A DNA stretch of 64,000 nt, taken from contig NZ_JAHVIA010000006.1 of assembly GCF_019801965.1 (NCBI RefSeq), positions 62,001 to 126,000 of the forward strand, read 5' to 3'. The notes under the pieces are model-generated. The model did no database searches and had not been told where the DNA came from. It was given only the letters and a program-made list of their open reading frames with translations. Source of the DNA: Salipiger bermudensis (GTDB taxonomy: Bacteria > Pseudomonadota > Alphaproteobacteria > Rhodobacterales > Rhodobacteraceae). Shown here in pieces: positions 21,130 to 37,521 of this stretch. Position numbers and translations under genes: made by a program. Every line of letters starts with the position of its first letter. Position 1 is the first letter of the stretch.

Positions 21130-22203
21130 ATGGCAAAGATCACGCTCGACAACCTCGCCCACAGCTACAAGCCCAACCCGGCGACCGAGGACGATTACGC
21201 GCTCAAGGAGCTCAACCACGACTGGGTCGATGGCGAGGCCTACGCGCTGCTCGGCTCCTCGGGCTGCGGCAAGTCCACGCTGCTCAACATCATCTCGGGG
21301 CTGCTGACGCCCTCGCAGGGGCGCATCCTCTTTGACGGCAAGGACGTGACCAACGCGCCCACCGCCGAGCGCAACATCGCGCAGGTGTTCCAGTTCCCGG
21401 TGGTCTACGACACCATGACGGTACACGACAATCTCGCCTTCCCGCTGCGCAACCGCGGCCGCGACGAGGCCTATGTCGCCGAGCGGGTGAACGAGATCGC
21501 CCGGATGATCGGCATGGAGCACATGCTCAAGCGCAAGGCGCGCGGGCTCGGCGCCGACGAGAAGCAGAAGATCAGCCTCGGGCGCGGCATGGTGCGCAAG
21601 GATGTCAACGCGCTGCTCTTCGACGAGCCGCTGACGGTGATCGATCCGCACATGAAATGGGAGCTGCGCACCCAGCTCAAGAAGCTGCACCACGAGTTCG
21701 GCCACACGATGATCTACGTCACCCACGACCAGACCGAGGCGCTGACCTTCGCCGACAAGGTGGTGGTGATGTATGACGGCCGCGTCGTCCAGATCGGCAC
21801 GCCGGAAGAGCTCTTCGAGCGGCCCGAGCACACCTTCGTGGGCTATTTCATCGGCTCGCCGGGGATGAACGTGATCCCGGCCCGGGTCGAGGGGTCGACC
21901 GCCCATGTCGGCGGCGCCGAGATCGCGCTCGGGCAAGGCTACGGCGCGCTGTCAGGCAAGGTCGAGATCGGCATCCGCCCGGAGTTTGCCCGCCTGTCGC
22001 AGAGCGAAGGCCTGCCGGTGAAGGTGCGCCGGGTCGAGGATGTGGGCCGGCACAAGATCATCCGCGCCGACATGTTCGGGCAGGAGATCAACATCATCGC
22101 CGGCGAGGACGAGCGCATCAGCCCCGACATGAACCGCGTGGCCTTCGATCCCGCGCAGGTCAACGTCTACGCCGATGACTGGCGCGTGAAGGGGGCGGCA
22201 TGA
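21130..22203 (+). CDS. glpT: Glycerol ABC transporter ATP-binding protein GlpT-like
   Basis: The second, 357-residue ATPase of the glycerol importer. It has a normal Walker A (GSSGCGKST, residues 42-50), Q-loop (FQFPV), Walker B (LLFDEP, D165 E166) and switch His199 in YVTHDQTEA. Its signature motif is degenerate: LGADEKQ at 140-146 in place of LSGGQ. Combined with GlpS this predicts one complete and one defective composite ATP site. A C-terminal OB-type domain (about 240-357) follows, as in maltose-type importers. ATG 21130 follows GGGGAGAGG. A palindrome-ended repeat separates it from glpP. Not to be confused with the E. coli glycerol-3-phosphate antiporter of the same symbol. Confidence 0.85.
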   Translation: MAKITLDNLAHSYKPNPATEDDYALKELNHDWVDGEAYALLGSSGCGKSTLLNIISGLLTPSQGRILFDGKDVTNAPTAERNIAQVFQFPVVYDTMTVHDNLAFPLRNRGRDEAYVAERVNEIARMIGMEHMLKRKARGLGADEKQKISLGRGMVRKDVNALLFDEPLTVIDPHMKWELRTQLKKLHHEFGHTMIYVTHDQTEALTFADKVVVMYDGRVVQIGTPEELFERPEHTFVGYFIGSPGMNVIPARVEGSTAHVGGAEIALGQGYGALSGKVEIGIRPEFARLSQSEGLPVKVRRVEDVGRHKIIRADMFGQEINIIAGEDERISPDMNRVAFDPAQVNVYADDWRVKGAA

Positions 22204-30108: not shown

Positions 30109-30810
30109 TTATGCCCTTTCGCCGCTGATCGAGACCGGACCGAGCGGGTATTTTTCATTGTGGCGCTCGGGCCAGGCGCGATAGGCCGCGCGGGCGCCCG
30201 GGAAGCCGATATAGACCCAGGACTGCATCTCGTGGTTGCCGCCGTATTGCGGGTCCGCAAAGTAGCCTTCCTTGGTGTTGGCCAGCAGGATGGTGAAGAA
30301 GTCACGGATCTCGGAGGCAAGCCCGACATCGCCGTTCTGCAGCGCGGTCAGCGCCGCGTCCTGCAGCTCCTCGGAGAGCTCGGCGAAGGCCGCGCCGTGG
30401 GTTTCCTGGCACCAGGCGTCGAAGGCGGGGATCGCCTGGCGGTAGATCTCGGCCGGGCTCAGCGGTGTCTGCCAGCCACGGGCGGGCTCGGCATCGGGAT
30501 CGTGCGGGCCTTCCATGTACCAGTCGTCAGCACTGCCGTAATCGCCGGCAAGCTGGAGGTCGATGAAGACAGGCACGCGGGCCTCGATGGCGCCGGGGCC
30601 ATCGCCTTCGGAGGGGATCAGCCGCGCGCTCGCGGCCATCACGAAGGCCCACTCATCTGCGGTCAGATAGGAGCGGTCATACTCTTCGAGGGGAACGGGG
30701 GGCGTGGTCTCCTGCGCTTTCGCTTGGGCGGCCAGACCGGAGAGAGCGACACCTGCCGCCGACGCTTTGAGGAAATTGCGTCGGCTCGGGTATCCGGGGA
30801 GATCGGTCAT
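30109..30810 (-). CDS. Gluconate 2-dehydrogenase small subunit with Tat signal
   Basis: A 233-residue protein of the gluconate-2-dehydrogenase subunit 3 family. The twin-arginine motif SRRNFLKASAAG is at residues 9-20, followed by a hydrophobic stretch and a cleavage site near AKA-QET (about 33). The mature part includes FVMAASARLIPSEGDGPGAIEARVPVFIDLQLAGDYG, conserved in the family. It is thought to act as a chaperone-like subunit that escorts the flavoprotein through the Tat pore. It is the first gene of the operon small subunit-flavoprotein-cytochrome, with gaps of 3 and 11 bases. Confidence 0.9.
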   Translation of the reverse strand: MTDLPGYPSRRNFLKASAAGVALSGLAAQAKAQETTPPVPLEEYDRSYLTADEWAFVMAASARLIPSEGDGPGAIEARVPVFIDLQLAGDYGSADDWYMEGPHDPDAEPARGWQTPLSPAEIYRQAIPAFDAWCQETHGAAFAELSEELQDAALTALQNGDVGLASEIRDFFTILLANTKEGYFADPQYGGNHEMQSWVYIGFPGARAAYRAWPERHNEKYPLGPVSISGERA

Positions 30811-31499
30811 GTAGAATGTCCTGCCGGTATGGGTGGAACGTATGTGCGCTAACTATGCACTGCGTCGGACCTAGGCCGCGGCAGGGGGGCAAGCAAGCGA
30901 TTGTGTGGGCTTGCAAAAGCGATATGGCCAGCGGCGCTGACCAGCTCGGGCATGCACAGTGACGCGCGAGAGCCAGCAAATATAGTTTGAAAGCCCAATG
31001 AATATTGGGCCTGAGCGGTCACCTTTTAATGCCCGAACGTTCACCATGATCGCCCCTTCGGGCAATCCGCGCACAGTCAGTGTGCGTTTTTGCCGGGGCA
31101 GCGCGCCCATTGGTCGCGGTGAAAGGCGCTCCGCCGGGCCGGTTACGGCGACAGCGCACCAGGAACGGGAATCGGTCTTTGCCGGAGAGACAGGGCGCCT
31201 GTTGGCGCCGCGAGCGGCCGGTTCCCCGGCCTTGCGCTGCTGCCTGCCCAATCGCTGAGCAACGCCGCGAGGTGGGCGGCCCGCGTCGAGACGGTCCGCC
31301 ATCACGAAGCTGCCGCTAGGGCAACCGAGGATCCACGCCATCAAACAAGAACTGCCCAATCTGGCGGCGGAAAACTCCGGGAAACTGCGTAGCCGCGTCG
31401 GCAATTTCGGCAGGTCGGGTCTCTGCCATGCACATACCGCAAAGCGGGTCTGCAGCCTCGTGTGTTGAACGTCTCGGGAGGATGCTCCAAATGTACTGC
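30811..31499. other. Intergenic region upstream of the dehydrogenase operon
   Basis: About 690 bases. The leftward dehydrogenase promoter should lie at 30815-31000, where an A+T-richer patch occurs. The remainder (31000-31460) has no supported gene: frames on either strand show no family resemblance or ribosome site, and none encodes the small DUF1127-type protein that often precedes cuckoo RNAs. A possible rightward promoter is TTGAAC (31465-31470), 16 bases, CCAAAT (31487-31492). Confidence 0.45.
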
Positions 31500-31605
31500 A
31501 ACGAACATTGATAGATGTTCAGCAAGTTTCCTGAGGCTCTCTCCTCCTCCCTGAGCCTGGGAATCAGCGGCGACCCTCTCTCCTCCTCCCTGAGGGTCGC
31601 CGCGC
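31500..31605 (+). ncRNA. Cuckoo-family (CcsR-like) small RNA with two CCUCCUCCC hairpin loops
   Basis: Two hairpins carry the same 13-base loop, TCTCCTCCTCCCT, containing the anti-Shine-Dalgarno motif CCUCCUCCC. Hairpin 1 has stem AGGCTC/GAGCCT (31534-31558). Hairpin 2 has a perfect 12-bp stem GCGGCGACCCTC/GAGGGTCGCCGC (31567-31603). The stems differ while the loops are identical, which is the mark of a functional loop. A weaker hairpin GAACAT/ATGTTC precedes them (31503-31520). This matches the Rhodobacterales cuckoo RNAs (CcsR1-4 of Rhodobacter sphaeroides, stress-induced and RpoH-dependent), which also have two such loops per unit. The 5' end is guessed from a TTGAAC-N16-CCAAAT promoter-like sequence; the 3' end is uncertain since no T-run follows. 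Confidence 0.75.
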
Positions 31606-31657
31606 CTCCCCCCTCTCCCCCATCCCCACAAGGTCGAAGCGGAAGACGCGACGTCTC

Positions 31658-33157
31658 TTAGCTATAGCTTTCGCGCAGCTGGTTTTTCTGAACCTTGCCC
31701 ATGGTGTTGCGCGGCAGTGCATCGATGATCTCGTAGCGCTGCGGATGCTTGAAACGCGCCAGCGCGCCCTTCACCGTCGCGGCAATGGCGTCGAGATCCG
31801 GGGTCGCGCCAGGCTCGGCCACCACCAGCGCCAGCGGCGTCTCACCGAAATCCGCGTGCGGGATGCCAATGACCGCCGATTCCAGCACGCCCGGCTGGTC
31901 ATCGATCACCATCTCGATTTCCTTGGGATAGATGTTGTAGCCACCCGAGATGATCAGGTCCTTGTTGCGCCCGACGATCTGCACGTAGCCATCCGCGTCG
32001 AGCGTGCCGAGATCGCCGGTGATGAAGAAGCCGTCCGCGCGCAGCTCCTCGGCGGTCTTCTCCGGCATCTTCCAGTAGCCCTTGAAGACGTTCGGGCCGC
32101 GCACCTCGATCTGGCCGACCTCGCCCTGCGCGACCTCCTCGCCGGTCTCGGGATCGGTGATCTTGAGCTCGACCCCGGGAAGCGGAAAGCCCACCGTGCC
32201 GGCGCGGCGCTCGCCGTCATAGGGGTTGGAAGTGTTCATGTTGGTTTCGGTCATTCCGTAGCGCTCGAGGATGCGGTGCCCGGTGCGGGCCTCGAACTTC
32301 TCGTGCGTGTCCGACAGCAGCGGCGCGGAGCCCGACACGAAGAGCCGCATGTGCTGTGCCAGCTCGCGCGTGAAGCGCGGATCGTCGAGCAGGCGGGTGT
32401 AGAAGGTCGGCACCCCCATCATCGACGTGGCCTTCGGCATCCACTCGATGAGCTGGTCGATGTCGAGCTTCGGCAAAAAGACCATCGCCCCGCCCGCCAG
32501 AAGCATGATGTTGGACGCCACGAAAAGCCCGTGAGTGTGGAAGATCGGCAGCGCGTGCAGCAGCACGTCATCGCTTGTGAAGCGCCAGTGCTCGACCAGC
32601 GTCTCGGCGTTGGAGAGCAGGTTGTTCTGCGTCAGCATCGCCCCCTTCGAGCGCCCGGTGGTGCCCGAGGTGTAGAGGAAGGCCGCCAGATCCTCGCCGT
32701 CGCGATCGACGGTGTCGAAGGTGTCGGGCTTGCCGGCGGCGGCGTCGCTGAGACTGCCCGCACCATCCGCGTCGAGCGTCAGAAGCTGCGCGCCGAGCCC
32801 CTCGGCCACCGGGCGCAGCCCGGCCTCGCGTTTGGTTGCACAGACCACCAGCGACGCGCCGCTGTTCTCGATGAAATAGGTCAGCTCCTCGACGGTGTAG
32901 CCGGTGTTGAGCGGCAGGAAGACCACGCCGGCCTGCACGCAGGCGGCATAGAGCGCCAGCGCCTCGGGCGACTTGTCGACCTGCGCCGCAAGGCGCTCGC
33001 CGGGGGCGACGCCGAGATCGGCGATGACATGCGCGAAGCGCGCTGCGAGGCCGAGGAAGTCGGCATGGCTCAGCACGCGGCCATCGGCCAGCATCAGGAA
33101 CGGGGTGGTCTGTCCGGCATGGGCTCCGAAGAGGCGGTCATACAACGGGTTCGGCAT
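31658..33157 (-). CDS. matB: Malonyl-CoA synthetase
   Basis: A 499-residue acyl-adenylate-forming ligase that makes malonyl-CoA from malonate, ATP and CoA in the cytoplasm. The P-loop-like AMP-binding motif is FLYTSGTTGRSKGAML (about residues 158-173). RYGMTETNMNTSNPYDGERRAGTVGFPLPG is the diagnostic MatB region, with the Arg that selects the malonate carboxylate. The C-terminal hinge ITGDLGTLDADGYVQIVGRNKDLIISGGYNIYPKEIE and catalytic Lys in PRNTMGKVQKNQL are present. It lies 11 bases after matA and ends the matPQMAB operon. Malonyl-CoA can be used directly or decarboxylated by MatA. Confidence 0.93.
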   Translation of the reverse strand: MPNPLYDRLFGAHAGQTTPFLMLADGRVLSHADFLGLAARFAHVIADLGVAPGERLAAQVDKSPEALALYAACVQAGVVFLPLNTGYTVEELTYFIENSGASLVVCATKREAGLRPVAEGLGAQLLTLDADGAGSLSDAAAGKPDTFDTVDRDGEDLAAFLYTSGTTGRSKGAMLTQNNLLSNAETLVEHWRFTSDDVLLHALPIFHTHGLFVASNIMLLAGGAMVFLPKLDIDQLIEWMPKATSMMGVPTFYTRLLDDPRFTRELAQHMRLFVSGSAPLLSDTHEKFEARTGHRILERYGMTETNMNTSNPYDGERRAGTVGFPLPGVELKITDPETGEEVAQGEVGQIEVRGPNVFKGYWKMPEKTAEELRADGFFITGDLGTLDADGYVQIVGRNKDLIISGGYNIYPKEIEMVIDDQPGVLESAVIGIPHADFGETPLALVVAEPGATPDLDAIAATVKGALARFKHPQRYEIIDALPRNTMGKVQKNQLRESYS

Positions 33158-37440: not shown

Positions 37441-37521
37441 GGTTTCTCCTCCCAGAGTTGACCGGGTTGTGCCCCCGGTCGAGGCCCAACCTCGCAATGA
37501 TTGTTTTTTCAGTCAAGTTTT

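Follow-up and report, generated by a model that had tools for sequence, protein, structure and literature searches.

RNAs of the CcsR type are known to arise by processing from DUF1127 genes under RpoH control; the 3' region of the DUF1127 mRNA is their source, and at the CcsR/CIN1 locus they mature from a precursor through RNase E and CcaF1. The CcsR1-4 operon of Rhodobacter sphaeroides is transcribed from an RpoHI/RpoHII promoter (PMC10253847), among the RpoH elements of that organism the -35 TTG matters most (PMC3441632), and the consensus for RpoH1 of S. meliloti is CTTGAA-N15-16-CCTATAT (PMC4843759). NfeR1 (alpha-r14) is present in six copies in S. meliloti and has a sigma70/LsrB promoter (PMC10746234, PMC7143759); the LsrB box lies at -72 to -60, expression requires LsrB, the anti-Shine-Dalgarno (aSD) loops block the ntrB ribosome-binding site, and the RNA is predicted to prefer transporter mRNAs (PMC10746234). 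The cuckoo RNA family of Reinkensmeier and Giegerich (2015) is described as having two to four hairpins whose helix sequences are unconserved and whose loop motif is conserved (PMC4504443). In the VtlR/LsrB regulon, which includes AbcR1 and AbcR2, a LysR-type box (GCAT-N3-TG-N3-T or CAATGCAGCCATGCA) serves the activation of small RNAs and DUF1127 genes (PMC7486931, PMC12595884), and VtlR of Brucella activates DUF1127 genes as well as AbcR2 (PMC12595884).

Results

The unit described here lies on the plus strand within a 64,000-nucleotide stretch of the Salipiger bermudensis genome (the window). It is flanked by an operon pointing away from it, with a gluconate 2-dehydrogenase subunit 3 gene (30109-30810, minus strand; Pfam PF13618), and by a convergent malonate operon with an AMP-binding acyl-CoA synthetase gene of the malonyl-CoA synthetase type (31658-33157, minus strand; PF00501). 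The promoter position and the covarying structure suggest a gene at 31499-31625, with a putative start near 31499 and a predicted end within a pyrimidine-rich tail, giving an RNA of about 120 bases. Two aSD hairpins carry the identical 13-nucleotide loop TCTCCTCCTCCCT, as the initial annotation had noticed. Hairpin 1 (31534-31558, loop 31540-31552) has a 6-bp stem with an outer UUCC/GGAA extension (31528-31531 paired with 31560-31563), and hairpin 2 (31567-31603, loop 31579-31591) has the perfect 12-bp helix reported for it. That annotation took the locus for a single two-hairpin unit, and both hairpins stand; the unit is not complete with them, since a further hairpin at the 5' end (GAACATT-GATA-GATGTTC, 31503-31520) makes a three-hairpin transcript. 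This hairpin, the LysR-type box and the sibling copies described below, and the tail (31604-31629) had all escaped notice. The tail is G-poor, C/T-rich in nearly all related units, and could possibly act as a third aSD stretch or as a Rho site; it lacks a U run, and no T run is present in the unit on either strand. The folding energy of positions 31490-31620 is -51.6 kcal/mol, whereas shuffled sequences average -31.9 (z -5.6) and none of 200 reached the native value. We also note a palindrome, GCCCAAT-GAAT-ATTGGGC (30993-31010), about 180 bases ahead of the gluconate 2-dehydrogenase operon, which is a possible operator.

The sequence CTCCTCCTCCCT occurs 13 times in the genome, at four places. 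One is a classical locus in which a 69-residue DUF1127 gene (Pfam, 47.7 bits) is followed by five two-hairpin units; another, on contig C3, is an orphan two-hairpin unit nearly identical to that of the window, which is itself the third. In addition to a normal CcsR-type locus, the genome thus has at least two orphans, of which the window unit is one. As had been claimed, no DUF1127 gene precedes it: Pfam found none among the upstream open reading frames, and the DUF1127 gene, behind which CcsR/CIN1 units are co-transcribed, is at the other locus. The fourth place is a lone hairpin with the loop sequence TCTCCTCCTCCCTT (L016:2310-2345, minus strand; G000:C7), where a second hairpin was not found and the surrounding small genes may be prophage-like. 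About 650 bases past the C3 orphan there is in addition a more diverged aSD-hairpin locus (L015:1395-1518, minus strand; G000:C3) with CCTCC-type loops, a sub-threshold match to ar14 (38.5 bits) and an upstream ATGC/GTTTGCA pattern resembling that of the orphans.

A covariance-model check had been suggested at the outset. Rfam gave nothing at the gathering threshold, and a permissive search returned both CcsR1 and ar14 over 31523-31618. The CcsR1 (RF02791) score is 52.7 bits (E 9e-12), under the cut-off of 65.3, and that for ar14 (RF02344) is 46.6 bits, under 58.8; the DUF1127-linked CcsR units of the same genome are also below the cut-off, at no more than 52.4 bits. By architecture the unit has the features of the cuckoo family, with a hairpin number within two to four, a conserved CCUCCUCCC loop, and stems that are diverged but paired. 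These loops and stems support the original assignment to a cuckoo or CcsR-type aSD RNA lacking DUF1127.

In a DNA search of 61 relatives, most Salipiger genomes proved to have orphan units at scattered sites, with a maximum of six per genome; the named contigs carrying the window-type unit are all Salipiger, one of them labelled Citreicella. We aligned 52 distinct orphan units with their flanks from 17 Salipiger genomes. The 5' hairpin, whose loop is often GNRA, and the two aSD hairpins are predicted in all 52, with 31 distinct stem sequences for the former and 23 and 22 for the latter. Paired cells amount to 94.9% under a named structure, changes on both sides of a pair are seen in 105 cells (36 in shuffles, at most 25 when slid), and double changes affect 17 of the 23 pairs; the window copy's 5' hairpin sits one column out of register, which slightly lowers the count. 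A common layout, pairing and covariation in 52 orphans rule out chance, and they bear out the earlier view of a conserved loop on diverged yet paired stems.

In S. bermudensis AmN7-7 the unit is kept at the equivalent place, so that the loops are conserved in a syntenic region as had been anticipated, with 90% identity over the stretch that runs from the -10 region to the end of the RNA. An empty site in S. bermudensis HTCC2601 was considered and rejected, because a run of N covers the RNA between conserved flanks, and the copy is simply unread. The run (L112, G019:C5) spans the small RNA and the core promoter region; the hairpins probably gave rise to a sequencing gap here. In more distant Salipiger the malonate loci have no unit at that place. 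A covariance model built from the 52 orphans finds units in 292 of 395 genomes of the family; outside Salipiger, the units examined are mostly DUF1127-type arrays, and orphans of like build and promoter elements are present in a few other genera (G134, G136 and G268).

The orphans also share promoter elements at fixed places, namely ATGC-N-GCA, a GGTCTGCA-like element, TTG, and a CTA-like element. In the window copy these correspond to a LysR-type box of the form TGC-N7-GCA (T-N11-A), TGCACATACCGCA, at 31429-31441, about -70 to -58 if transcription starts at 31499; to the upstream element GGTCTGCA at 31447-31454, situated within a diverged VtlR-like motif (CAAAGCGGGTCTGCA, 31440-31454); to a -35-like TTGAAC at 31465-31470 in the column of the conserved TTG; and to a -10-like CCAAAT at 31487-31492, aligned with the CTA-like element. 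The conserved elements support the proposal that the unit would have its own promoter, and with a box around -65 it appears to share a trait of alpha-r14/NfeR1. Each orphan has such a conserved promoter of its own, from which we infer independent transcription of the window gene.

The exact TGC-N7-GCA sequence is found at the expected place in 28 of the 52 orphans, compared with 0.6% of shuffles. At DUF1127-CcsR loci across the family, paired boxes 39-40 bp apart occur in 25 of 30 (0.02% in shuffles), and the Brucella VtlR motif CAATGCAGCCATGCA is present with at most two mismatches in 21 of the 30 and in no shuffle. The VtlR-like 15-mer of the window copy has five mismatches to that of Brucella and is not significant alone, and its second box is degenerate; control by the regulator is therefore better supported for the siblings and the DUF1127-CcsR loci than for the window copy.

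Among 42 LysR-type matches in the genome, one (G000:C7:264795-265697; L156:1495-2397, plus strand) stands much nearer to A. tumefaciens LsrB than any other, scoring 241 bits with the next at 126. Its best PDB match is 9HH1, A. tumefaciens LsrB, to which it is 40% identical overall and 75% (48 of 64 residues) over the DNA-binding region; NCBIfam gives it no name. Of 100 family genomes, 96 have one copy of it, although LsrB has been called unique to Rhizobiales in a 2025 study (PMC11975290). The two redox cysteines conserved in LsrB are missing from the aligned protein, and its signal may therefore differ. The Rhizobiales arrangement, with the regulator next to trxB, was looked for and rejected, the neighbour being an Lrp/AsnC-like gene. 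No box precedes the LsrB-like gene itself, and an autoregulatory box is absent from 10 of 11 readable promoters. Cuckoo units occur in none of nine genomes whose regulator is below 70% identity and in 36 of 41 at 78% or above, a relationship that agrees with such control but is confounded by kinship. The promoters of the orphan copies are probably controlled by a regulator hitherto unconnected with them, and we infer that this is the LsrB-like protein, acting at the boxes.

The loop sequence is the complement of ribosome-binding sites of the GGAGG type. One candidate target is the ribosome-binding region GGGAGGAGAAACC (site GGGAGGAGA; 37441-37457, minus strand) of a TRAP periplasmic-protein (dctP-like) gene beside the malonate operon, with its start codon at 37440-37438 on the minus strand. 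The predicted loop duplex with this leader has -17.5 kcal/mol and ranks third among the 43 start regions tested in the window, for which the median is -8.3; that with a gene starting at 21130 reaches -19.2 kcal/mol. The dctP-like target is only a prediction, and agrees with the transporter preference predicted for NfeR1.

Discussion

We have described here a real and conserved small RNA gene, a variant of the cuckoo family and not a new kind of RNA, whose 5' hairpin, two same-loop hairpins, C/U-rich tail and fixed-place promoter elements are retained together in copies scattered throughout Salipiger. We consider it likely, judging from sequence, that 31499 to about 31625 on the plus strand encodes an independently transcribed, trans-acting RNA of the cuckoo (CcsR/alpha-r14) type, a LysR-activated blocker of ribosome-binding sites. 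A LysR-type regulator, most plausibly the LsrB-like protein G000:C7:264795-265697, would activate transcription through the TGC-N7-GCA box. The 5' hairpin would shield the 5' end of the RNA, and we propose that an end protected in this way needs no cutting from a DUF1127 transcript. The loops would pair with GGAGG-type sites and block translation of many mRNAs, those of transporter genes first, as NfeR1 does; the RNA probably shuts off other genes by covering their ribosome sites. As the operator is common to the orphans and the DUF1127-CcsR locus, we propose that the orphans represent extra gene doses within one regulon.

The core promoter of the window copy offers a rather different interpretation, in which the RNA is an RpoHI/RpoHII-dependent stress RNA and TTGAAC-N16-CCAAAT an RpoH promoter like that of ccaF1-CcsR1-4. 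The RpoH-type promoter of that operon (PMC10253847) and the weight of the -35 TTG (PMC3441632) speak in its favour, as does the presence of the TTGAA...CCAAAT pattern in both the window copy and its orthologue (TTGAAA-N16-CCAAAT). However, these two are the only orphans among the 52 to have it, and even there the match to the CTTGAA...CCTATAT-type consensus of S. meliloti RpoH1 (PMC4843759) is partial; the other 50 have a TTG...CTANNT-like core, yet share the LysR-type upstream elements with the window copy. We thus regard the RpoH interpretation as doubtful. It is nonetheless compatible with control by a LysR-type regulator, and the core promoter of the window copy may have drifted to an RpoH-like form that adds a stress input, such an input being possible for this copy only.

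Three further explanations were considered. The window copy could be a decaying, unexpressed duplicate, with the functional RNAs coming from the DUF1127-CcsR locus and the C3 orphan; its promoter, among the most diverged of the orphans and with the second box lost, would be in keeping with this, and in S. meliloti clear expression is known for only one of the six NfeR1 copies (PMC7143759). Both loops are exact, however, both aSD stems are fully paired, and the shared promoter elements are kept between two species where the intervening bases have changed, and we think decay improbable. If the units were a small mobile or repeat element that multiplies in Salipiger genomes by means of the RNA structure, this would account for up to six dispersed copies per genome at different sites, those at C3 and in the window being unrelated, but the copies carry a promoter and covarying stems. 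Moreover, several sequence types are common to multiple species, so that the duplications look mostly old, and we give a mobile element little credence. Lastly, the unit lies about 50 bp past the synthetase gene's 3' end, and its hairpins, one of them strong and G+C-rich, might serve the convergent malonate operon on the minus strand as a terminator or 3' structure, with no RNA gene at all. We rejected this as extremely improbable, since there is no T run on either strand, the strand-specific loop and upstream promoter are kept in all four neighbour orientations (18, 12, 12 and 8 cases, from a simple gene caller), and other Salipiger malonate loci have no unit there.

The shared LysR-type operator is a more interesting result than the small RNA gene. 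What appears to be new here is the TGC-N7-GCA box in orphan promoters, placed nearly as the LsrB box of NfeR1. The operator points to a testable candidate regulator of the family-wide DUF1127-CcsR system, which it would connect to the circuit of LsrB/VtlR, DUF1127 and small RNAs in rhizobia and Brucella. The orphan copies would also provide a natural test of CcsR-type RNAs working without DUF1127 coupling.

The initial annotation regarded independent transcription as unusual for the family, but this does not hold, as NfeR1/alpha-r14 has its own sigma70/LsrB promoter and Salipiger has up to six orphans per genome. The resemblance to NfeR1/alpha-r14 (PMC10746234, PMC7143759) extends to dispersed multiple copies, CCUCCUCCC loops on diverged stems, apparent independent transcription, and a LysR-type box at nearly equal distance from the start, although NfeR1 has three aSD hairpins whereas the window unit has two together with a 5' hairpin free of the motif. 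It resembles R. sphaeroides CcsR1-4 (RF02791; the ccaF1/DUF1127 operon, CIN1 locus) in its two-hairpin unit and identical loops, but differs in having no DUF1127 gene and in its putative own promoter and 5' hairpin. In hairpin number, diverged helices and conserved loop motif it agrees with the cuckoo family as described (PMC4504443). As with AbcR1/AbcR2 and the VtlR/LsrB regulon, a LysR-type box is found ahead of both small RNAs and DUF1127 genes. We tentatively suggest, with somewhat less than even confidence, that a core LsrB-like regulator controls a family-wide regulon comprising the DUF1127 protein, the tandem CcsRs and, in Salipiger, stand-alone aSD RNAs that their own promoter and 5' hairpin have freed from DUF1127-coupled processing.
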